Below are positions 3,142 through 61,309 of a stretch of DNA of 64,000 nucleotides, one piece after another. How positions within the stretch are numbered: position 1 is the first letter of the stretch; every line of letters starts with the position of its first letter. This DNA comes from Comamonas testosteroni (lineage in GTDB: Bacteria; Pseudomonadota; Gammaproteobacteria; Burkholderiales; Burkholderiaceae_C), in assembly GCA_008727115.1 (NCBI GenBank), contig CP044131.1:1488001-1552000 (forward strand), given 5' to 3'. The position numbers and the translations under genes are program-made. A model generated the notes under the pieces. It was not told where the DNA came from. It was given only the letters and a program-made list of their open reading frames with translations, and searched no databases.

Positions 3142-3226
<85 letters not shown>

Positions 3227-3242
3227 ATTTCAGAGTGATCGA

Positions 3243-3248
3243 ATTATA
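3243..3248 (-). promoter_or_regulatory. -10 box (TATAAT) of tRNA-Leu copy 1
   Basis: On the minus strand a perfect TATAAT ends 16 nt before the tRNA 5' end, with GCGACA 18 nt upstream as a -35. Copies 3 and 4 of the tRNA have the same box; copy 2 has TACAAT. This supports independent promoters for the units. Confidence 0.75.
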
Positions 3249-3318
3249 TAGCAGCTGGCGCAGTGTTGTCGCGAGATGGTGGTGTTTTTTCTCAAAACAG
3301 CAAGTAAGGCGGAAAACG

Positions 3319-3352
3319 AAAAAGCCGCTGCATTTGCATGCAGCGGCTTTTT
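3319..3352 (-). terminator. Terminator of tRNA-Leu unit 2
   Basis: Perfect 15-bp inverted repeat AAAAAGCCGCTGCAT / ATGCAGCGGCTTTTT around a 4-nt loop, just 3' of the tRNA on the minus strand. It is the only copy with no mismatch. Confidence 0.88.
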
Positions 3353-3358
3353 GTATTT

Positions 3359-3443
<85 letters not shown>

Positions 3444-3536
3444 ATTTCAGAGTGATCGAATTGTATAGCAGCTGGCGCAGTGTTGGCGCGAGATGGCGGT
3501 GTTTTTTCTCAAAATAGCAAGTGAGGATGGGTAACG

Positions 3537-3570
3537 AAAAAGCCGCTGCATTTGCATGCAACGGCTTTTT
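3537..3570 (-). terminator. Terminator of tRNA-Leu unit 3
   Basis: Same hairpin as unit 1 with one mismatch (CAGCGGC changed to CAACGGC on the plus strand). Confidence 0.85.
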
Positions 3571-3576
3571 GTATTT

Positions 3577-3661
<85 letters not shown>

Positions 3662-3754
3662 ATTTCAGAGTGATCGAATTATATAGCAGCTGGCGCAGTG
3701 TTGTCGCGAGATGGTGGTGTTTTTTCTCAAAACAGCAAGTGAGGATGGGTAACG

Positions 3755-3788
3755 AAAAAGCCGCTGCACTTGCATGCAACGGCTTTTT
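3755..3788 (-). terminator. Terminator of tRNA-Leu unit 4
   Basis: Same hairpin with two differences from the perfect version (CACTTGCATG loop side and CAACGGC). The U tract is retained. Confidence 0.82.
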
Positions 3789-3793
3789 GTATT

Positions 3794-3878
<85 letters not shown>

Positions 3879-3969
3879 ATTTCAGAGTGATCGAATTATA
3901 TAGCAGCTGGCGCAGTGTTGGCGTGAGATGGCGGTGTTTTTTCTCAAACAGCAAGTAAGGCGGAAAACG

Positions 3970-4003
3970 AAAAAGCCGCTGCATTTGCATGCAACGGCTT
4001 TTT
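3970..4003 (-). terminator. Terminator of tRNA-Leu unit 5
   Basis: Same AAAAAGCCGCTGCAT / ATGCAACGGCTTTTT hairpin as in unit 1, immediately 3' of copy 5. Confidence 0.85.
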
Positions 4004-4008
4004 GTATT

Positions 4009-4093
<85 letters not shown>

Positions 4094-4235
4094 TTTCAGG
4101 GAAGCTTCGTATTCTACTGCAGTTATTTGCAAGGAATCTGAATCTTCAATTTTTCTAAGATGCCGTAGGACTTTGCAACATTCCTTGTGGAATGTTGTCC
4201 AAGTTTGCTGCAACCAGGCTGGTTGTCGTTAAACT

Positions 4236-4320
<85 letters not shown>

Positions 4321-37951: not shown

Positions 37952-39286
37952 ATGGCACGACAGTATTTCGGCACCGATGGGATTCGCGGCACGGTGGGCA
38001 AGTCTCCCATCACGCCTGACTTTGCTCTGCGTCTAGCGCATGCGGTGGGGCGTGTGCTGCGGCGCACGCAAGAGCGTCCTCTGGTCCTGATTGGCAAAGA
38101 CACTCGCATTTCCGGCTACATGCTCGAGAGTGCGCTGGAATCAGGCTTTAACTCTGCAGGCGTGGACGTCATGCTGCTCGGGCCTTTGCCTACGCCGGGC
38201 GTTGCCTATCTGACGCGGGCCCAGCGTGCCAGTCTGGGTGTGGTGATCAGCGCCAGCCACAATCCGTTTTATGACAATGGCATCAAGTTTTTCAGCGCAG
38301 AAGGCACCAAGCTGTCAGACGCCTGGGAAGAGGATGTCGAGGCTGCGCTCAAGGAGGATCCAGCTTGGGCGGATTCCGCCTCTCTGGGCAAAGCACAGCG
38401 GCTGTCCGATGCCGCCGGTCGCTATATCGAGTTCTGCAAGAGCACCTTTGATCACAGCCTGACTTTGCGTGGCCTGAAGATCGTGGTGGATGCCGCACAT
38501 GGTGCGGCCTATCAGATCGCTCCCAAGGTGTTCCATGAGCTGGGGGCCAATGTCGTGGCCATTGGCTGCACACCAGACGGTCTCAATATCAACGAGGGAG
38601 TAGGTGCCACTCATCCCGAAGCGCTGGTGCGCGCCGTGCGTGCCAATAATGCGGATTACGGTGTGGCGCTGGACGGCGATGCCGACCGCTTGCAGCTCGT
38701 TGATGCGCAAGGGCGTCTCTACAACGGTGATGAGTTGCTTTATCTGATGGCCGCAGATCGTTTAGCCCATGGCGAGGCCGTACCTGGTGTCGCCGGCACC
38801 CTGATGACCAATATGGCCGTTGAGCAAGCGCTCAAGCAGCGTGGTGTGGGCTTTGTGCGCGCAAAAGTGGGTGATCGCTATGTTCTGGAAGCCCTGCATG
38901 CCAACGACTGGCAGCTGGGGGGTGAGGGCTCAGGGCATTTGCTGGCTCTGGACAAGCACACCACGGGCGATGGTCTGGTCAGTGCGTTGCAGGTGCTGCA
39001 AGCCTGCGTGCGCTCCCAGAAAACCATTGCACAGTGGCTGGAGCCAGTGACTCTGTTCCCCCAGGTCATGATCAATGTGCGCCTGCAGCCGGGGCAGGAC
39101 TGGAAGAGCAATGCCAAGCTGCCGCTGGAGCAGGCAGAAGTTGAGAAGCAACTGGGCAGTGATGGCCGGGTGCTGATTCGCCCCAGTGGTACGGAGCCGC
39201 TGGTGCGCGTCATGGTGGAAGCCAAAGATGCGGCCGTGGCAAGCAATTGCGCCGAGCGTCTGGCCGAAATCGTCAGAGCCAGCTGA
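37952..39286 (+). CDS. glmM: Phosphoglucosamine mutase
   Basis: Interconverts glucosamine-6-P and glucosamine-1-P for UDP-GlcNAc, the precursor of peptidoglycan and of lipid A. It has 444 residues: [11 protein letters not shown], catalytic Ser102 in [18 protein letters not shown], metal site ALDGDADRL and the phosphate-binding [21 protein letters not shown] lies 10 bases before the ATG. Confidence 0.98.
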
Positions 39287-39329
39287 GCCGGGGCAAAACT
39301 CGGTGACAGTCATTGCTGTGAAGTGAAGC

Positions 39330-39347
39330 CTGTCACTGAGAAGTCAT
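39330..39347 (+). promoter_or_regulatory. Pho box upstream of ppk
   Basis: CTGTCAC-TGAG-AAGTCAT: two 7-bp PhoB half-sites in direct repeat with the usual 4-bp spacer (6/7 and 5/7 against CTGTCAT), 72 bp before the ppk start. It places ppk in the Pho regulon by inference. Confidence 0.65.
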
Positions 39348-39419
39348 TGAATTGACACAAATACTGGGCAGACTCAGAACATGCCCTGATGGGCGTTTCA
39401 AGCTTTTGTAGCTGCTGAT

Positions 39420-40828
39420 ATGTCCCAAACCGTACCTGGTCCTGACTCACTATCCTCTGTAACCACCTCTGAGGTCCTTGTTCAAAAAGCTGCGGTCGCC
39501 AGCGCTGCGCAAAGCCGCGGCGCGCTCAAGGCCTTGCCTCTTGAGGTGGCTCAGACAGGTCCAGCCTCTTTGGGGCTGGCTTCCAAGGCACTGCCTGTTA
39601 CCGCGGTGGCAGCTCGGGAAAGTCGGCGAATAAAAGTTGCACAAGCCAAAACAGCCGGGCACGATGAGGTGCCCGCTGCTGTTTCTGAGGAGCCTGTGTC
39701 ATCGCCTTCTTCCACCCCCAAAGCGCCGCGTCGACGCCGAGTGCAGCGCAAACCCGAGGTCGTCATGCCGGTTGCGGCCGAGCCGACCCTGGAGCTGCTG
39801 GACCGTGATCAAAGCATTCTGCTCTTCAACGAGCGTGTGCTGAGCTGGGCCGAGCGTGAGGATGTGCCGCTGCTCGAGCGCCTGCGCTACCTGTGTATCG
39901 TTTCTTCCAATCTGGACGAGTGGTTTGAGGTGCGCAGTGCCCCTCATGTGTCGGCGGCCAAGGTGGGAGACGAGCAGGGGCAATACTCCCGCAGCAGCTT
40001 CGAGCGACTCATGGCCACGGCCCATGCGCTGGTCAACAAGCAGTACCAGCTCTACAACCAGTCCCTCATTCCGGCATTTGACAAGCATGCGATCAGGCTC
40101 GTCTCTCATGGCGAGCGCAGCGCGGCCCAGCGCAAGTGGGTGCGCGAATATTTCTTGCGCGAAGTGCAGCCCTTGCTAATGCCCGTGGGGCTTGATCCTT
40201 CCCATCCATTCCCTCAGGTGGCCAACAAGGCGCTGAACTTCATCGTGCGGCTCAATGGCGTGGATGCTTTCGGGCGCGCCAATGAGGTAGCCATCGTCAA
40301 GGTGCCGCGCGCCTTGCCGCGTCTGATTCGTCTGCCCCAGAAAATCTCGGGCAAGCAAAAGCTGTTTGTCAGTATTTCCAGCGTGGTCAGAGCCCATCTG
40401 GCCGAGCTGTTTCCGGGGCGTGAAGTTGCCGAGTTCTCGCAGTTTCGCGTCACCCGCCACTCCGATCTGGCGGTCGATGAAGACGATGTGGTGGACCTGC
40501 GCATGGCGCTGCGCCAGGGCCTGCACCACCGCCATTACGGCCAGGCGGTGCGCCTGGAGGTGTCATCGTCATGCTCGGCGGTGCTCTCCGATCTGCTGCT
40601 TGAGCAATACGACCTGCCGGCCGAAGCCTTGTTCCGTGTCAAGGGGCCGGTCAATCTGGTGCGTCAAATGCAACTGATCGACTTGGTGGATGACCCGGCT
40701 TTGCTGTTTCCCAAATGGAAGCCGGCCTGGCCCAAGCAGCTGGTTCCAGGGCGCTCCATCCTGGCGCAGATGCGCAAGAGCGACATCATCATTCACCAGC
40801 CCTTCGAAAGCTTTGATGGCGTGCTAGA
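39420..40828 (+). pseudogene. ppk: Polyphosphate kinase 1, 5' fragment (split by transposon)
   Basis: PPK1 makes polyphosphate from ATP. This part codes about 470 residues: a low-complexity Ala/Ser/Pro/Lys N-extension of about 115 residues, then the PPK N domain (LLDRDQSILLFNERVLSWAE; RYLCIVSSNLDEWFEVR) and the start of the middle domains (IIHQPFESFDGVL). At 40828 the frame enters the element, runs 29 codons further and stops at 40916. The catalytic phospholipase-D-like domains are missing, so this fragment cannot be active. Joined to 43273-44275 it would give 803 residues without a frameshift. A start at the ATG near 39765 would give a length closer to usual PPK1. Confidence 0.95.
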
Positions 40829-40850
40829 TGTGATGTCCAGGGACGTTGTT
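40829..40850. repeat. Left terminal inverted repeat of the element
   Basis: 22 bp starting TGTGATGTCC, exact reverse complement of the right end. The 5' TGT is typical of IS481 ends. Confidence 0.95.
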
Positions 40851-41008
40851 CTGGCCCCCGCCCGTAATGACACCGTGCCGATTCAAGAAGTATCTGTCCA
40901 GACCGCTTGCCATTGAAGGCATGTTAGAGTTTGGGGCATGTCGAGTCCCGAATCAGACAGGTCAGGGGTTGTCGGTCACACCGCCAGCCCCTTGAACCAC
41001 TAGTTACG

Positions 41009-41031
41009 ACGCCCACGATCTGTGTGGGCGT
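41009..41031 (+). promoter_or_regulatory. Hairpin in the leader of the exporter gene
   Basis: Perfect 8-bp stem ACGCCCAC / GTGGGCGT with a 7-nt loop GATCTGT, immediately before the short leader frame at 41032. Confidence 0.6.
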
Positions 41032-41085
41032 ATGTCTGGCGTACCCGGGGCGCTGGCCGTGGTGACAAGAAGAACCATTTCTTGA
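41032..41085 (+). CDS. Candidate leader peptide of a translational attenuator
   Basis: A 17-residue frame, MSGVPGALAVVTRRTIS, ends 21 bp before the exporter ATG. Its 3' end forms a hairpin (CAAGAA/TTCTTG, extended by GGTG/CACC) that reaches to the exporter ribosome binding site CGGAG. Phenicol resistance genes such as cat and cmlA are often induced by ribosome stalling in such leaders. The function here is inferred. The frame 40938-41003 (21 residues) is an alternative. Confidence 0.45.
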   Translation: MSGVPGALAVVTRRTIS

Positions 41086-41106
41086 TCTCACACCTCGGAG
41101 TACTCG

Positions 41107-42282
41107 ATGCCTTTTGCCCTCTACATGCTTGCCCTGGCGGTCTTCGTCATGGGCACTTCAGAATTCATGCTCGCGGGATTGCTCCCCGCGATCGCGACCG
41201 AACTTGACGTCTCGGTCGGCACTGCGGGCCTGCTGACCTCCGCATTCGCAGTCGGTATGGTCGTCGGCGCGCCAGTGATGGCGGCATTCGCTCGCCGTTG
41301 GCCACCGCGGCTCACATTGATCGTTTGCCTTCTCGTGTTCGCGGGAAGCCACGTCATCGGAGCGATGACACCAGTGTTCTCTCTCCTGCTCATCACCCGG
41401 GTGCTCAGCGCTCTCGCAAACGCAGGATTCCTCGCCGTAGCACTGAGCACGGCCACTACCCTCGTGCCAGCGAACCAGAAGGGGCGTGCACTGTCGATCC
41501 TGCTCTCCGGCACGACGATCGCAACCGTCGTGGGCGTCCCCGCCGGGGCACTGCTCGGCACAGCGCTGGGCTGGCGAACGACGTTCTGGGCGATCGCCAT
41601 CCTCTGTATTCCCGCGGCCGTTGGAGTCATTCGTGGCGTCACGAACAATGTTGGTCGGAGCGAGACTAGCGCGACCTCACCAAGGCTCCGTGTCGAGCTC
41701 AGCCAGTTGGCGACGCCGCGGCTCATCCTGGCCATGGCACTCGGAGCGCTGATCAACGGAGGGACCTTTGCGGCATTCACCTTCCTGGCACCCATCGTGA
41801 CCGAGACCGCGGGCTTGGCCGAAGCGTGGGTGTCCGTCGCGCTGGTGATGTTCGGCATCGGATCGTTCCTTGGCGTCACGATCGCAGGACGACTATCAGA
41901 TCAACGACCTGGCCTCGTGCTCGCAGTCGGCGGACCGCTATTGCTGACAGGCTGGATCGTGTTGGCAGTGGTCGCATCTCATCCCGTTGCGCTTATCGTC
42001 CTCGTCCTCGTTCAGGGATTCCTGTCGTTCGGCGTCGGCAGTACTCTGATCACGCGTGTGCTGTATGCAGCATCGGGTGCGCCAACGATGGGCGGTTCGT
42101 ACGCAACCGCAGCATTGAATATCGGAGCTGCAGCGGGGCCCGTGCTTGGTGCGCTCGGGCTCGCGACCGGGCTGGGGCTGCTCGCGCCGGTTTGGGTCGC
42201 TTCGGTGCTGACAGCGATCGCTCTCGTCATCATGCTTCTCACCAGACGCGCGCTTACGAAGACCGCGGCGGAGGCCAATTGA
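41107..42282 (+). CDS. cmx: MFS chloramphenicol efflux protein, Cmx type
   Basis: 391-residue inner-membrane drug/proton antiporter of the DHA1 group, expected to have 12 helices. Motifs are MGTSEFMLAGLLPAIATELDVS at the start (in part), the loop 2-3 motif AFARRWPPR, and motif C-like GTTIATVVGVPAGALLG in helix 5. It closely resembles actinobacterial Cmx/Cmr proteins that export chloramphenicol; assignment is from memory of the family. Ribosome binding site CGGAG precedes the ATG. Its TGA overlaps the transposase ATG by one base, so the two are likely co-translated. Codon use is foreign to the host. Confidence 0.9.
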   Translation: MPFALYMLALAVFVMGTSEFMLAGLLPAIATELDVSVGTAGLLTSAFAVGMVVGAPVMAAFARRWPPRLTLIVCLLVFAGSHVIGAMTPVFSLLLITRVLSALANAGFLAVALSTATTLVPANQKGRALSILLSGTTIATVVGVPAGALLGTALGWRTTFWAIAILCIPAAVGVIRGVTNNVGRSETSATSPRLRVELSQLATPRLILAMALGALINGGTFAAFTFLAPIVTETAGLAEAWVSVALVMFGIGSFLGVTIAGRLSDQRPGLVLAVGGPLLLTGWIVLAVVASHPVALIVLVLVQGFLSFGVGSTLITRVLYAASGAPTMGGSYATAALNIGAAAGPVLGALGLATGLGLLAPVWVASVLTAIALVIMLLTRRALTKTAAEAN

Positions 42283-43271
42283 TGACCCATCCGAACGCTC
42301 TTCTCACTCCTCGTGCCCGTCTCCGGTTAGCTCGGCTGATTGTCGAAGACGGCTATCCGGCCACGATCGCCGCAAAGATGTTCATGGTCTCCCCGATCAC
42401 TGCCCGGAAATGGGCAGGCCGCTACCGGGAAGAGGGTGAGTTTGGGATGCAGGATCGCTCCAGCAAGCCGCACCGGATCCCAGGCAGGACGCCCGAGCAT
42501 GTCAAGAAGAAGATCATCAACCTGCGCTGGCGGCTTCGACTGGGGCCAGCCCAGATCGCTGCGCGACTTGGTCTCTCGACGTCGACTGTTCACGCGGTCC
42601 TCGTCCGTTGCCGCGTGAACCGCCTCTCGCATATCGATCGTGTCACTGGCGAGCCATTGCGGCGATATGAGCATCCTCATCCGGGATCGTTGATTCATGT
42701 CGATGTCACGAAGTTCGGCAACATCCCCGACGGCGGTGGACATCGTTACGTAGGTCGGCAGCAAGGCGCACGGAACAAGCTCGCGACTCCGGGATTACCA
42801 CGAGGAAAAGATCACAAGCCGCGCACCGGGACGGCGTTCGTTCACACAGTCATCGACGACCACTCCCGCGTCGCATACGCAGAAATCTGGTCGGATGAGC
42901 AGGCGAGCACAGCGGTGGGAGTTCTCGAACGCGCCGTGGCCTGGTTCGCCGAACGAGGCGTGACCGTCGAGCGAGTCCTATCCGACAACGGGTCGGCATA
43001 CAGATCCCACGCATGGAGGGACTTCTGCGCTCGGCTCGGCATCCGACACAAGCGGACACGCCCCTACCGGCCGCAGACGAACGGGAAGATCGAGCGATTC
43101 CACCGCACGCTCGGGGACGGCTGGGCCTATGCCAGGTTTTACGGTTCAGAGGCCGAACGACGCCTGGCGCTGCCCGGCTGGCTCCACTTCTACAACCACC
43201 ACCGACACCACTCTGCGATTGGCGGCGTACCCTTCGACCGACTCAACAACGTCCCTGGACATCACAGCTAG
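42282..43271 (+). CDS. IS481 family DDE transposase
   Basis: 329 residues: N-terminal helix-turn-helix (AARLGLSTSTVHAVL after a first HTH at YPATIAAKMFMVSPITARKW, in part), then the RNase H-like core with Asp141 (HVDVTKF), Asp235 (LSDNGSAYRS) and Glu271 (NGKIERFHRTL), i.e. a DD35E spacing. The full IS481 signature is present, so the element is probably active. The coding frame runs through the right inverted repeat, and its stop TAG (43269-43271) lies in the target duplication, beyond the element. Confidence 0.95.
   Translation: MTHPNALLTPRARLRLARLIVEDGYPATIAAKMFMVSPITARKWAGRYREEGEFGMQDRSSKPHRIPGRTPEHVKKKIINLRWRLRLGPAQIAARLGLSTSTVHAVLVRCRVNRLSHIDRVTGEPLRRYEHPHPGSLIHVDVTKFGNIPDGGGHRYVGRQQGARNKLATPGLPRGKDHKPRTGTAFVHTVIDDHSRVAYAEIWSDEQASTAVGVLERAVAWFAERGVTVERVLSDNGSAYRSHAWRDFCARLGIRHKRTRPYRPQTNGKIERFHRTLGDGWAYARFYGSEAERRLALPGWLHFYNHHRHHSAIGGVPFDRLNNVPGHHS
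43245..43266. repeat. Right terminal inverted repeat of the element
   Basis: 22 bp ending ...GGACATCACA, perfect complement of the left end. It forms the last codons of the transposase. Confidence 0.95.
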
Positions 43272-44275
43272 AGCTGCTGCGCGAGGCTGTGAACGATCCG
43301 CAGGTGCTGGCCATCAAGCAGACCATCTATCGCACGGGCACCGACTCCGAGATCATGAATCTGCTGGCCGAAGCGGTGAGCCGCGGCAAGGAGGTGCTGG
43401 CCGTGCTGGAGCTCAAGGCGCGCTTTGATGAAGAGGCGAACATCAACTGGGCCGAGAAGCTGGAGTCGCTGGGCGTGCAGGTGGTCTACGGCGTGGTGGG
43501 CCTGAAGACGCATGCCAAGATGCTGCTGATCACTCGGCGTGAAAAGCGCCTGAACCAGCTCAAGCGCTACGGCCATCTGTCCACGGGCAACTACAACGCC
43601 CGCAGTGCGCGCCTGTATACCGACATCAGCCAGCTGACTTGCGACGATGAAATCACGGCCGATATGGATGCCGTATTCCGTCACCTCTCCAGCCACAACA
43701 CCCTGCCCAAGCTGCAAAAGCTGGTCATGGCGCCTTTCCATCTGCAAAACCGCATGCTGGAGCTGATTGGTCAGGTGGCCGCCGCCGCAGACAAGGGGGA
43801 GAAGGCGCGCATGGTGCTCAAGATGAATGCGCTGACCGATGAGCCTCTGATACGGGCACTGGTGGATGCCGGGCGCAAGGGCGCCAAGATCGATCTGATC
43901 GTGCGGGGCGCCTGCATGCTGCCGGCACAGCGACCGGGCGTGACGGACAACATTCGTGTGCGATCCATCATCGGGCGCTTTCTGGAGCACTCTCGCGTCT
44001 TCTACTTTGCCTGGGGTCAGGAGGAAGAGCTGCTGCTGTCCAGCGCCGACTGGATGAACCGCAACATGCTCAGCCGCGTGGAGCTGGCCTGGCCGGTCGT
44101 GGACAAAAAGCTGCGCCAGCGCGTGATTGATGAGTGCCTGGTCGCTTATCTGGGGGACGACCGCAATGCCTGGATGCTTGGAGCTTCTGGCGAGTACCAA
44201 AAGCCGGTGCGGCCTCTGGAGGGCAAGGGGGCACAGCAGGCCCTGATGCTGCGCTATGGCGGTAAAAACGCCTGA
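43267..44275 (+). pseudogene. ppk: Polyphosphate kinase 1, 3' fragment
   Basis: Begins with the second copy of the GCTAGA duplication. From 43273 it reads on as ELLREAVNDPQVLAIKQTIYRTG in the ppk frame (given in part). It holds both catalytic phospholipase-D-like domains: GLKTHAKMLLITRR with the autophosphorylated His, and LSTGNYNARSARLYTDISQL. It ends LMLRYGGKNA at 44275. No start of its own is obvious. The frame continues upstream into the transposase gene in another phase, so translation from inside the element is possible but unlikely to give an active enzyme. Confidence 0.93.
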
Positions 44276-44427
44276 CAGATATATTGAAAATATGAGCTGT
44301 TAGCGCAGATTCATCAACGATTTCAGCTGTATTTACATCTGAAATCATTGATTGAAAATCGCTTACAGCTATGGTTTTTGAAAATGGGCGCACCATACTG
44401 CCGATTGAGCCTTCTGGCTGCACATGA

Positions 44428-44463
44428 AAAAGGGACTGCAAATGCAGTCCCTTTGGCTTTTTT
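44428..44463. terminator. Bidirectional terminator between ppk and ppx
   Basis: AAAGGGACTGC (44429-44439) pairs perfectly with GCAGTCCCTTT (44444-44454), loop AAAT, followed by GGCTTTTTTG. Confidence 0.88.
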
Positions 44464-44486
44464 GAGGGCACCGAGGTGCGCGCAAC

Positions 44487-45968
44487 TCAGCGCAGCTGCA
44501 GCTTGAGGCTCCAGTCTGTTTTGCTCCAGGCTGCTGCCTCTGCCTCTAGCAGACGTGCCGACTGCGGATAGGTCAGCATCCAGCCAGCGGGGGTGGAGAG
44601 CTTGCACTCGGCGCCCATGCGCTTGAGCTGTATGCCGCTCATGTCCGGGTCGCGGCGGGTGTGGCAAAGCTGCACGGCCAGGCGCAGAGCCATCAGCGCC
44701 AGGGCCAGTTGCGGCTCGGCAATCGCGTCTTCCAGCTTGCGCAGCTTTCCCTGGTGGCCCAGCACCAGCTGGCTGATGCGCTGGCGCAGCTCAGGCTGCC
44801 AGGTGGCGATGCCGCAATGCTCGGCAATGTAGGCGCCATGGCGGTGGTAATTGTTCAAGGCCACGCGCATGCCCATCTCATGCAACTGGGCAGCAATGTC
44901 CAGCGCCTGTGTGCTCAGGGTGGGCGAGTTCTCGGGCTGTATCTGCTGCCACAGCTGGGCGGCAACGCGCTGCACCCGCTGGGCGTGGGCCACATTGATG
45001 CCAAAGTCTTGCTGCAGGGCGCTGATTTCTGCAGCCTCCTTGTCAGCGGGAGGCTCGTGGTCGAGCAAATCGTGCAGGACGCCCTGGCGCAGTGCACCCT
45101 GTGCGACTTCCAGCTCGGTAATGCCCAGCAGATCGACCATGGCCATCATCACGCTGATGCCGCCAGCCACCACGGGGCGGCGGTCTTCCTTGAGGCCTGG
45201 CATGCGCAGGCGATCGACGTGACCGATTTCGAGCAGCAGCTGATAGAGGTGTTGCAGCTTGGAGGGGGTAATCACTTGTCCGGCCATGCCCAGGGCGGTC
45301 AAGGCGTCGGCCACTGCGTTGGCTGTGCCTGAGGAGGCATAGGCGCAGTCCCAGGCCGTTCCCGGGTAGGCGAACTGCGCTTGCGCCAGGCAGGCCTTGG
45401 CGGCGGTAATCGCGGCCTGGAAGTTGGCTTTGCTCAGCGCGCCATCGCTGAAGAACTGGGTGCTCCAGGAAACGCTGCCAAGCGGAAACGATGCCACCTG
45501 CAGCGCCTGGCTGTGCTGGCCAATGATGACTTCCGTGGAGCGCCCGCCAATGTCGATGACCAGGCGGCGCTGCTGACTGGGCGGTAGCGAGCTGGAAACG
45601 CCCCGGTAGATCAGGCGGGCTTCTTCTTCGCCGGCAATGACTTCGATGAGAAAGCCCAGTAGCTCGCTGCCACGGCGGATGAATTCCTCGGCATTGCAGG
45701 CCTCGCGTAAGGTTTGTGTTGCCACGGCGCGCACATGGGCTGAGGAAAAGCCCCTCAGGCGCTCGCCAAAGCGCGCCAGACATTCCCAGCCGCGCTCCAT
45801 GGCCTCGCGCGAGAGCTCATGGCGCGCGTTCAGGCCGTTGCCCTGGCGCACGGTTTCCTTGAGGTACTCCACGCGCTCAATGCGTTGATGCGAGCCTATG
45901 CGGCCAATTTCAAGGCGAAAACTGTTGGAGCCAAGGTCTACGGCGGCAAGCAGCGATTCAGGAGCCAT
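44487..45968 (-). CDS. ppx: Exopolyphosphatase (Ppx/GppA family)
   Basis: Degrades polyphosphate, or pppGpp in the GppA branch. It has 493 residues, ASKHA fold: LLAAVDLGSNSFRLEIGR phosphate loop, AVATQTLREA, EVIAGEEEARLIYRGV, and VIDIGGRSTEVIIG; a C-terminal HD-like helical domain (ALDIAAQLHEMGMRVALNNYHRHGAYI; in part) fits Ppx. It is convergent with ppk. With ppk broken, its polyphosphate substrate may be scarce. Confidence 0.93.
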   Translation of the reverse strand: MAPESLLAAVDLGSNSFRLEIGRIGSHQRIERVEYLKETVRQGNGLNARHELSREAMERGWECLARFGERLRGFSSAHVRAVATQTLREACNAEEFIRRGSELLGFLIEVIAGEEEARLIYRGVSSSLPPSQQRRLVIDIGGRSTEVIIGQHSQALQVASFPLGSVSWSTQFFSDGALSKANFQAAITAAKACLAQAQFAYPGTAWDCAYASSGTANAVADALTALGMAGQVITPSKLQHLYQLLLEIGHVDRLRMPGLKEDRRPVVAGGISVMMAMVDLLGITELEVAQGALRQGVLHDLLDHEPPADKEAAEISALQQDFGINVAHAQRVQRVAAQLWQQIQPENSPTLSTQALDIAAQLHEMGMRVALNNYHRHGAYIAEHCGIATWQPELRQRISQLVLGHQGKLRKLEDAIAEPQLALALMALRLAVQLCHTRRDPDMSGIQLKRMGAECKLSTPAGWMLTYPQSARLLEAEAAAWSKTDWSLKLQLR

Positions 45969-46150
45969 TTCTGAGCCAATCCATGCGTTGTTGTTTTGTA
46001 AGCGGGTATGAGCGAGCCCGTGAGAGGGTCAATATGCGTGTGCAGCGCTGCGAATATGCAACAGCTGCTGTCACTGGGCTCATTTTGAAGGCCTTGCAAC
46101 CTCGATCAAGTCAGGTATTGAAAGGTGTAATTTTGACAAGCTTTGATGGG

Positions 46151-46168
46151 AAAACAGCAGTGTGACAG
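46151..46168 (-). promoter_or_regulatory. Candidate Pho box facing ppx
   Basis: On the minus strand CTGTCAC-ACTG-CTGTTTT, half-sites 6/7 and 5/7 against CTGTCAT with the normal 4-bp spacer, 183 bp upstream of ppx. Confidence 0.45.
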
Positions 46169-46335
46169 CGCTTTCGCAATAGGGGCTTGCCTTTGGGAGC
46201 CTGTCACAAATGTTGCGTCTTCTGTCTCTACTCGGGAACCGAGTATGAAGTCAGGAGGCAGAGTTTGAGAGTGGAATATGTCATCGGAATGACGGCGTGG
46301 AGCAGCCTTTTCTTTAATGTGTCTGCTGATTTTGT

Positions 46336-46353
46336 GTGTCACAACGCTGTCAT
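46336..46353 (+). promoter_or_regulatory. Pho box of the pst operon
   Basis: GTGTCAC-AACG-CTGTCAT, a direct repeat of the PhoB half-site (the second copy is perfect) 54 bp before the pstS start. Further CTGTCA half-sites are at 46070 and 46201. The 439-bp gap between ppx and pstS (45969-46407) contains these sites and no gene. Confidence 0.8.
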
Positions 46354-46407
46354 AAAACGTTTTTAAAGTTCACTCCATCGAATCTTTCAACCCTAAGAGG
46401 TCGTTTC

Positions 46408-47439
46408 ATGAAGTTGTCCTTGATTCACGTTCTGGTGGCTGGTGCTTTGTCGGCAGGTGGCTTTGCCCATGCAAGCCAAGAGGCTACAGGTGCTGGTGCG
46501 AGCTTCCCGGCTCCTCTGTATTCCAAGTGGGCTGCCGACTACCACAAGGCTACCGGCGTCAAGATTAACTACCAGTCCGTGGGCTCCAGCGCTGGCGTCA
46601 AGCAAATCGATGCCAAAACGGTGGACTTCGGTGCCTCGGACGAGCCTCTGAAGGACGAAGAGCTGGCCAAGAAGGGCCTGGTGCAGTTCCCCACCGTGAT
46701 CGGCGGCATTGTGCCCGTGGTCAACATCAAGGGCGTGGCTCCCGGTCAGCTCAAGCTCTCGGGCCAGGTTCTGGGCGATATCTACCTGGGCAAGATCACC
46801 AAGTGGAATGACGCAGCCATCACGGCTCTGAACCCCGGCGTGGCTCTGCCTGACGCCACCATCGCTCCCGTGCGCCGCGCTGATGGCTCCGGCACGACTT
46901 TTGGCTTCACCAACTACCTCTCCAAGGTCAACGCCGAGTGGAAGGAGAAAGTGGGTGAGGGCAAGGCTGTGAACTGGCCCACCGGTGCCGGCGGCAAGGG
47001 TAACGAAGGTGTTGCTGCTTTCGTGGGCCGTCTGCCCAACTCCATTGGCTACGTTGAGTACGCCTATGTGAAGCAAAACAAGCTGACTTTCGCGCAGCTG
47101 CAGAACAAGGAAGGCGTTTACGTCTCTCCGGATGATGAGAGCTTCAAGGCTGCTGCCGCAGGCGCTGACTGGGCCAAGAGCTTCTATCAGATCCTGACCA
47201 ACCAGCCCGGCAAGAATGCCTGGCCCATCACTTCGGCGACCTTTATCCTGATGCACAAGACTCAGGACAAGCCTGCCCAAGCTACCACGTCGCTGAAGTT
47301 CTTTGACTGGGCTTACAAGCAAGGCGACAAGACCGCGGCCGATCTGGACTATGTGCCCATGCCTGACGCGGTCAAGAATGTCATCTTCAAGTCCTGGGAT
47401 GACATCAAGGACACTTCTGGCAAGGCAGTTGCCAAGTAA
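46408..47439 (+). CDS. pstS: Periplasmic phosphate-binding protein PstS
   Basis: High-affinity phosphate receptor of the Pst ABC importer. It has 343 residues with a signal peptide cleaved after FAHA, then [18 protein letters not shown] and the phosphate-contacting segments [18 protein letters not shown] and [15 protein letters not shown]. The start at 46408 (MKLSLIHV) gives the signal peptide; the frame is open 72 bases upstream. It is the first gene of pstSCAB-phoU-phoBR. Confidence 0.97.
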
Positions 47440-60740: not shown

Positions 60741-60816
60741 TGGCTCCTCAACCTGGGCTCGAACCAGGGACCTACGGATTAACAGTCCGGCGCTCTACCG
60801 ACTGAGCTATTGAGGA
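60741..60816 (-). tRNA. tRNA-Asn (anticodon GTT), copy 1
   Basis: 76 nt with encoded CCA. On the minus strand TCCTCAATAGCTCAGTCGG, anticodon arm CGGACTGTTAATCCG with anticodon GTT, T arm GGTTCGAGCC. It is the most distal gene of the array. Confidence 0.97.
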
Positions 60817-60864
60817 ATGTGTCGGTTTGACAAGCCTTGAGCGATTGCAAGGCTTTTTGAATTC

Positions 60865-60940
60865 TGGCTCCTCAACCTGGGCTCGAACCAGGGACCTACG
60901 GATTAACAGTCCGGCGCTCTACCGACTGAGCTATTGAGGA
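60865..60940 (-). tRNA. tRNA-Asn (anticodon GTT), copy 2
   Basis: Identical to copy 1 over 76 nt. Spacer on its 3' side has GGCTTTTTG, one or two T longer than in the other units. Confidence 0.97.
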
Positions 60941-60987
60941 ATGTGTCGGTTTGACAAGCCTTGAGCGATTGCAAGGCTTTTAAATTC

Positions 60988-61063
60988 TGGCTCCTCAACC
61001 TGGGCTCGAACCAGGGACCTACGGATTAACAGTCCGGCGCTCTACCGACTGAGCTATTGAGGA
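60988..61063 (-). tRNA. tRNA-Asn (anticodon GTT), copy 3
   Basis: Identical 76-nt tRNA. The spacer to its right differs by one base (ATATGTC instead of ATGTGTC). Confidence 0.97.
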
Positions 61064-61110
61064 ATATGTCGGTTTGACAAGCCTTGAGCGATTGCAAGGC
61101 TTTTAAATTC

Positions 61111-61186
61111 TGGCTCCTCAACCTGGGCTCGAACCAGGGACCTACGGATTAACAGTCCGGCGCTCTACCGACTGAGCTATTGAGGA
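61111..61186 (-). tRNA. tRNA-Asn (anticodon GTT), copy 4
   Basis: Identical 76-nt tRNA with encoded CCA. Confidence 0.97.
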
Positions 61187-61233
61187 ATGTGTCGGTTTGA
61201 CAAGCCTTGAGCGATTGCAAGGCTTTTAAATTC

Positions 61234-61309
61234 TGGCTCCTCAACCTGGGCTCGAACCAGGGACCTACGGATTAACAGTCCGGCGCTCTACCAACTGAGC
61301 TATTGAGGA
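61234..61309 (-). tRNA. tRNA-Asn (anticodon GTT), copy 5, D-loop variant
   Basis: First gene of the array in transcription order. One D-loop base differs (CAGTTGG instead of CAGTCGG). The flanking sequence upstream is unique and carries the promoter. Confidence 0.97.

Follow-up and report, generated by a model that had tools for sequence, protein, structure and literature searches.

The stretch of DNA analysed here, called the window, comprises 64,000 nucleotides of the Comamonas testosteroni contig CP044131.1 (assembly GCA_008727115.1, positions 1,488,001 to 1,552,000) and contains a complete cmx/IS5564 transposon of 2438 bp at 40829-43266. The transposon is bounded by a left inverted repeat (40829-40850, + strand) and a right inverted repeat (43245-43266, + strand) that match each other perfectly over 22 bp, and it is flanked by the target duplication GCTAGA on the left (40823-40828) and on the right (43267-43272). 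Two genes are encoded on the + strand, namely cmx (41107-42282), which codes for a major facilitator superfamily (MFS) exporter of 391 amino acids, and tnp (42282-43271), which codes for an IS5564-type transposase of the IS481 family. The genes share one base, the A of TGATG. Cmx matches the NCBIfam family NF000510 over its full length (residues 1-391) with 840 bits against a cut-off of 800 and is identical to the Cmx protein of pTP10; its predicted function as a chloramphenicol exporter is taken from the family. The transposase scores 337 bits on NF033577 (IS481, cut-off 224) and contains the LZ_Tnp_IS481 and rve domains. D141, D235 and E271 form the catalytic triad, in which 35 residues separate the second aspartate from the glutamate (DD35E). 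The 5'-TG..CA-3' ends and the NCTAGN target duplication of the IS481 family are both present. These results bear out the initial annotation of the locus, which had described a complete IS481-type transposon with exact ends, an NCTAGN target, an intact DD35E transposase and a Cmx exporter gene overlapping the transposase gene by one base. It was silent on the disruption of ppk1, the second copy of the element, the borrowed stop codon and the leader open reading frame (ORF) described below.

The transposase gene has no stop codon of its own, and the TAG at 43269-43271 sits outside the element, in the right-hand copy of the CTAG target. The stop is located at flank bases 3-5 in 37 of the 38 right junctions of element copies, and at the same place in all 51 junctions (51/51) of transposase relatives with 71-79% identity; loci L093 and L099, which are interrupted or cut, are left out of the junction counts. 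The borrowed stop codon is not a new trait, because transposase stops taken from the target are in print for ISRe46, where CTAG provides it (PMC6794481), and for ISLxc2 and ISLxx4 (PMC2516522). Exact 6-bp duplications were found in 22 of the 29 element copies with both ends readable, and all 22 contain CTAG. The rest of the window has few copies of this tetranucleotide, with 43 sites compared to 227 expected from base composition and 67 expected from trinucleotides. Selection on the junction for keeping the target stop was considered and is not needed. Both flanks read CTAA or TTAG at three loci (L039, L042 and L066), showing that insertion there was directly into sites that differ from CTAG by one base.

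The insertion is located in ppk1, the gene for polyphosphate kinase 1. The 5' part of the gene (39420-40828, + strand), which includes the left GCTAGA, contains the Pfam domain PP_kinase_N and the PP_kinase middle domain and matches NCBIfam poly_P_kin, while the 3' part (43267-44275, + strand) lacks a start of its own and contains PP_kinase_C_1 and PP_kinase_C. The reading frame of the 5' part continues into the element as far as a stop at 40916. A search of 53 genomes of the genus gave a match to the left flank in 43 (own included), for which 30 loci were given, 29 of them from other genomes. In 29/29 of these congener loci, ppk1 is uninterrupted at the site and the flanks join in exactly one copy of the six bases, which reads GCTGGA in 23 and contains CTAG in none. 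Since the congeners have GCTGGA in 23 of 29 cases and never CTAG, the target probably arose in this lineage, and the reading frame points to a silent change of a Leu codon. Judged from the sequence, the insertion has left ppk1 in two parts, which would abolish its activity. A gene of the PPK2 family is present elsewhere in the genome (G000:C1:93469-94122). The cmx gene has the same orientation as ppk1. Away from this locus, the window contains two tandem tRNA clusters, one of six tRNA-Leu(CAG) genes (3142-4320), which matches Cupriavidus, Ideonella, Vitreoscilla and Paraburkholderia sequences among plasmid records, and one of five tRNA-Asn(GTT) genes (60741-61309).

The closest described system is Tn5564 from plasmid pTP10 of Corynebacterium striatum, which consists of IS5564, cmx and IS1513 and shares with the window element the ends, an identical Cmx, the family name of the transposase and the CTAG target; on pTP10, the element lies between two CCTAGG sequences. 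It differs in that IS1513 is inserted near its left end, giving a length of 4156 bp, whereas the copy in the window lacks IS1513 and is 2438 bp long. By sequence comparison, the window element is the IS1513-free form of Tn5564, the same as the shorter form Tn45 (tnp45-cmx) of C. glutamicum and C. urealyticum, which likewise consists of a transposase gene and cmx (PMC3350403). The cmx transposon of Pseudomonas aeruginosa PA7 is identical over all 2438 bases, but the insertion sites in C. testosteroni, ppk1 and the stop codon of a sensor kinase gene, are different. A further parallel is TnRErm46/ISRe46 of Rhodococcus equi, which also belongs to the IS481 family, carries a resistance gene and obtains the TAG of its transposase from CTAG, but has erm(46) as cargo, other ends and a length of 6.9 kb (PMC6794481). 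In some cases, the target gene of TnRErm46 also takes its stop codon from this TAG and so remains whole (PMC6794481), as does the kinase gene at the second copy in C. testosteroni.

The distribution of the element points to an actinobacterial origin. We identified 21 matching plasmid records, 20 of which have at least 99% identity. Fifteen of these 20 are from Actinobacteria (Corynebacterium, Glutamicibacter, Paenarthrobacter, Dietzia, Nocardioides and Bifidobacterium) and five from Proteobacteria (Pseudomonas aeruginosa, Comamonas aquatica and Shinella). From a genome scan, 80 of 377 transposase relatives were kept, with names judged by eye. Among these 80, 25 loci have at least 97% identity, including three from Proteobacteria (Burkholderia sp. 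BCC0506, P. aeruginosa PA7 and Halopseudomonas xiamenensis), and the other 55 have 71-79% identity, 54 with actinobacterial names and one titled Planococcus. For the exporter, the next relatives on plasmids (60-80% identity) are all actinobacterial (6/6) among the 50 of 87 records listed, and the first proteobacterial proteins below the element copies in the same list show 36-37% identity. With a threshold of E <= 1e-60, the exporter was found in one of the 53 genomes of the genus, which is that of the window itself. The element was absent from 398 other sampled genomes of the order of the host (E <= 1e-20; 1/399, the window's own), and no match was obtained in 5,426 Escherichia coli genomes at megablast sensitivity. 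A native permease, the alternative named in the initial annotation, finds no support in the actinobacterial relatives and the 36-37% identity of the proteobacterial proteins among the 50 of 87 records listed, or in the presence of the exporter in a single genus genome, and the near-identical actinobacterial copies that the annotation had asked for were found. Its view of the insertion as recent holds as well. The actinobacterial source that it proposed agrees with the plasmid records (15/20) and transposase relatives (54/55), while the codon usage it invoked is a thin argument, as the G+C content is about 61-65% inside the element and 49-65% around it. The proposed transfer across phyla is also upheld; both the phylum crossing and the arrangement of the transposon are already in print (PMC5467266).

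Cmx homologs with 65-67% identity on three of seven plasmid loci, from Micrococcus, Brachybacterium and Microbacterium (L151, L152 and L155), are followed by an IS481 transposase gene with a 4-base overlap. All three have CTAG and a TGTTGC-type end before the leader, with end sequences that differ from those of Tn5564, and are apparent sister transposons of Tn5564. Because Cmx homologs this divergent also precede IS481 transposases, the exporter-transposase unit is suggested to be an older transposon lineage. In six other loci (L021-L026, five from Corynebacterium and one from Rothia), the match to the element has an identical breakpoint and starts at base 1547, corresponding to transposase codon 26, within the stretch examined.

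A second complete copy with an intact transposase frame is located at G000:C1:3478874-3481311, 1.95 Mb from the first. It is flanked by an exact target duplication, CCTAGA, and is placed at the stop codon of a gene for a hybrid sensor kinase, adjoining a GGDEF response regulator gene; the kinase region was matched in only two other of the 53 congeners, at 69-71%. At this site, a single palindromic CTAG (L087 4869-4874) provides the stop codon of both the transposase gene and, on the opposite strand, the host sensor kinase gene, and the kinase frame is whole. The copies differ at six positions, two upstream of cmx, three in cmx and one in tnp. One of the upstream differences changes Val12 of the leader ORF to Ala, and the Cmx protein of the second copy has a single amino acid change, Ala211 to Val. 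The first copy is identical over 2438/2438 bases to L003, L004, L008 and L011, and such identical copies occur in P. aeruginosa PA7, Burkholderia and Actinobacteria, while the haplotype of the second copy is found exactly in L090, a Shinella plasmid, and L095, a Paenarthrobacter plasmid.

The haplotypes bear on whether the second copy was produced from the first by transposition within this genome, or the reverse, with the six differences arising as later mutations. This would fit with both copies being complete, having intact transposase frames and showing exact duplications at CTAG. However, all six differences of the second copy are shared with L090 and L095, and the first copy agrees with L003, L004, L008 and L011 throughout, so that six parallel changes, in themselves unlikely, would have to be assumed. 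We therefore regard local copying as very unlikely. Because the haplotype of the second copy is common to the Shinella and Paenarthrobacter plasmids, the element most likely entered this genome on two occasions. A related question is how the element entered. The published carry-back model proposes recombination of integron flanks, and that paper reports that no transposition was detected in a test in E. coli (PMC5467266). Applied here, homologous recombination of flanking proteobacterial DNA would replace transposition in this host. In addition to the published model and the E. coli result, such a route is favoured by two P. aeruginosa plasmid copies that stand between sul1 and IS6100, and a variant can be envisaged in which the element transposed onto a mobile replicon elsewhere and ppk1 was then acquired by recombination from a relative. 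The flanks in C. testosteroni, however, are ppk1 for the first copy and the genes for the hybrid sensor kinase and GGDEF response regulator for the second, each with a 6-bp duplication. We found no match to intI1, sul1 or IS6100 in the window, in the 13 kb around the second copy (L087) or in the stretches examined around the PA7, Burkholderia and Halopseudomonas copies. Moreover, exact duplications are present in seven of the eight proteobacterial copies with both ends readable (L001, L002, L003, L004, L012, L088 and L090, but not L089). Entry by carry-back thus appears improbable, and since each copy is bounded by an exact target duplication and sits in or at a host gene, the two insertions are better explained by transposition in this proteobacterial cell. 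The two duplicated insertion sites are indirect evidence suggesting active transposition in this host. Two points weigh against transposition and two arrivals: an exact duplication is missing from seven of the 29 element copies whose ends could both be read, and the haplotypes could also reflect one arrival with a later exchange with another copy.

The region upstream of cmx contains a short ORF of 21 codons, MSSPESDRSGVVGHTASPLNH (40938-41003, + strand), which is a candidate drug-sensing leader peptide beginning with MSSPESD. It is preceded by the -10-like box TAGAGT (40925-40930, + strand), which is placed 7 bases before the leader start. To describe its conservation, we compiled 63 distinct loci upstream of Cmx-family genes, comprising 30 from the order sample (30 of 47 places), 26 further ones from the class sample (30 of 45 places, four of which were already in the set) and seven plasmid loci; four of the 63 are Tn5564 copies or 97-100% identical to Tn5564. 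The pattern, M-x-[SCAT]-P read from an ATG or GTG that has a TANNNT box 6-8 bases upstream, was present in 57/63 upstream regions compared to 38/12,600 shuffled ones, and the spacing between box and start is exactly 7 in 43 of the 57. The pattern was widened after inspection, from M..PES (23/37) to a relaxed form (32/37) and finally to one with Thr allowed at residue 3 (34/37). Among the six regions without it, L199, L201 and L210 have a leader just beyond the 400-base limit, L185 aligns only from exporter residue 142-144, L186 is a 41% homolog and L182 has no leader.

Residues 5 and 6 are not part of the pattern, and in 44 distinct peptides residue 5 is Glu in 41 and Lys in three, while residue 6 is Ser in 23 and Ala in 21. 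Ser at positions 2 and 3 is encoded by AGY in some leaders and by TCN in others, and codons 4-6 differ in their third bases with the peptide kept. Because both Ser codon families are used and these third bases vary, the leader peptide appears to be under selection. A strict form of the pattern at the DNA level, in which only Ser or Ala is allowed at residue 6, gave 29 matches in 394 genomes of the class sample, while the reversed pattern gave none. In 23 of the 29, the match opens an ORF of less than 40 residues, and 21 of these lie 146-423 bases before the start of a Cmx-family gene. One of the two others comprises eight residues and precedes a recA-like frame (named by eye). The other, at L228 1501-1580, is a full 21-residue MSSPES leader with no exporter within 600 bases, and is an orphan leader or one that has lost its exporter. 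The remaining six matches open frames of 60-338 residues that by eye look like the starts of other proteins. No leader peptide of Cmx was found in the literature searched, but the original Tn5564 and cmlR papers were outside its reach, so that it may be in print.

The leader region is predicted to fold strongly, with z = -3.8 for the single sequence from the window. A leader hairpin, GGGGTT...AGCCCC (40965-40991, + strand), is 98.9% paired in 20 distinct aligned leaders, compared to 37-73% for slid versions. The 3' side of the hairpin (40975-40988) has an alternative partner in the downstream segment GCTGGCCGTGGTGAC (41052-41066, + strand), and this distal helix is 90.7% paired in the 20 leaders (slid 20-71%); three of its base pairs show changes in both partners. 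A third segment, CGAGTCCCGA (40942-40951, + strand), covering leader codons 2-5, can pair with the ribosome-binding region of cmx (41095-41106), and 86.7% of the cells in this helix are paired in the same 20 leaders (slid 25-49%). The pairings were drawn on the first of the aligned sequences, which favours them over the slid versions. No Rfam element reached the gathering threshold in 38000-47000.

These structures raise the alternative that a conserved RNA structure or promoter gives rise to the leader ORF only incidentally, and that no sensor peptide is translated from it. The strong fold, the conserved hairpins and the variation of the frame after codon 7 would all be expected in such a case. 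What this does not account for is that the peptide is kept although Ser is encoded by either AGY or TCN and codons 4-6 differ in their third bases, and that several distant relatives retain only an ORF of nine residues, such as MSSPEASRR. We consider this alternative rather unlikely, and the putative sensor the better reading. Several observations nevertheless count against a chloramphenicol-sensing leader. The frame is not conserved past residue 7, where two frames occur. The pairing between leader and ribosome-binding region is weak over 49 distinct wider pairs, with a mean longest helix of 5.53 compared to 5.12 in shuffled pairs and 5.47 in the highest shuffle, and the role of this helix is uncertain. 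The three most distant rows of the alignment break the distal helix, and the covariation counts are not independent, as the pairings were drawn on one aligned sequence and the loci are related. Finally, a scan with the sigma-70 consensus found no promoter in the element, and the chloramphenicol tolerance reported for E. coli was obtained with supplied promoters (PMC5467266), so that in Proteobacteria the promoter carried by the element may be weak.

Chloramphenicol stalls ribosomes preferentially when the penultimate residue of the nascent chain is Ala, Ser or Thr. Because residue 6 is Ser or Ala, the leader suggests a chloramphenicol-stalled peptide, and a mechanism for the element as a whole can be proposed. 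The IS481-family transposase would have recognised the 22-bp ends and placed the whole 2438-bp unit into the CTAG of ppk1, duplicating six bases, and the duplicated CTAG provides the transposase with its stop codon. Transcription from the TANNNT box would begin where the leader ORF starts, so that the messenger would be translated as a leaderless mRNA. Chloramphenicol would stall the ribosome when residue 6 (Ser/Ala) is next to last in the nascent chain, and the stalled ribosome would cover leader bases otherwise paired with the cmx ribosome-binding site or engaged in hairpins, allowing cmx to be expressed. Expression of tnp may then follow through the one-base overlap with cmx. As ppk1 and cmx have the same orientation, any transcription of ppk1 would also run into cmx.

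Attenuation controlled by leader peptides is familiar from erm and cat genes. The candidate cmx leader resembles these drug-sensing attenuators, and the upstream ORF (uORF) of WhiB7/WblC, in having a short upstream ORF and predicted alternative pairings, supported in the 20 closer leaders and weak in the wider set, before a gene that acts against ribosome-targeting drugs, and it is a conserved short ORF with apparent constraint at the peptide level. It differs from the erm, cat and WblC systems in that MSSPE(S/A) is located at the expected transcript start and in that regulation by chloramphenicol is putative. For wblC, attenuation mediated by the uORF has been described (PMC7157823).

Taken together, we are confident that the best overall explanation is an IS1513-free Tn5564/Tn45 element inserted in ppk1, with two probable arrivals in the genome and a candidate chloramphenicol-sensing leader. 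The element itself is known; the Cmx-family leader peptide may be new, as may the evidence that two copies came separately, by transposition, into a single proteobacterial chromosome. The presence of two haplotypes of the cmx transposon with exact duplications in a single chromosome makes the published question of transposition or recombination directly testable. In its widest form, the proposal is that the MSSPE(S/A) leader is common to Cmx exporters across the Actinomycetes, is translated from leaderless transcripts and senses chloramphenicol through residue 6, and that Tn5564, capable of transposing on its own in Proteobacteria, takes the switch from phylum to phylum along with the pump; we give this an even chance of being correct. 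The conserved leader, with a residue matching the known preference of chloramphenicol stalling, suggests a family of exporters that is switched by the drug itself, with the switch travelling together with the gene.

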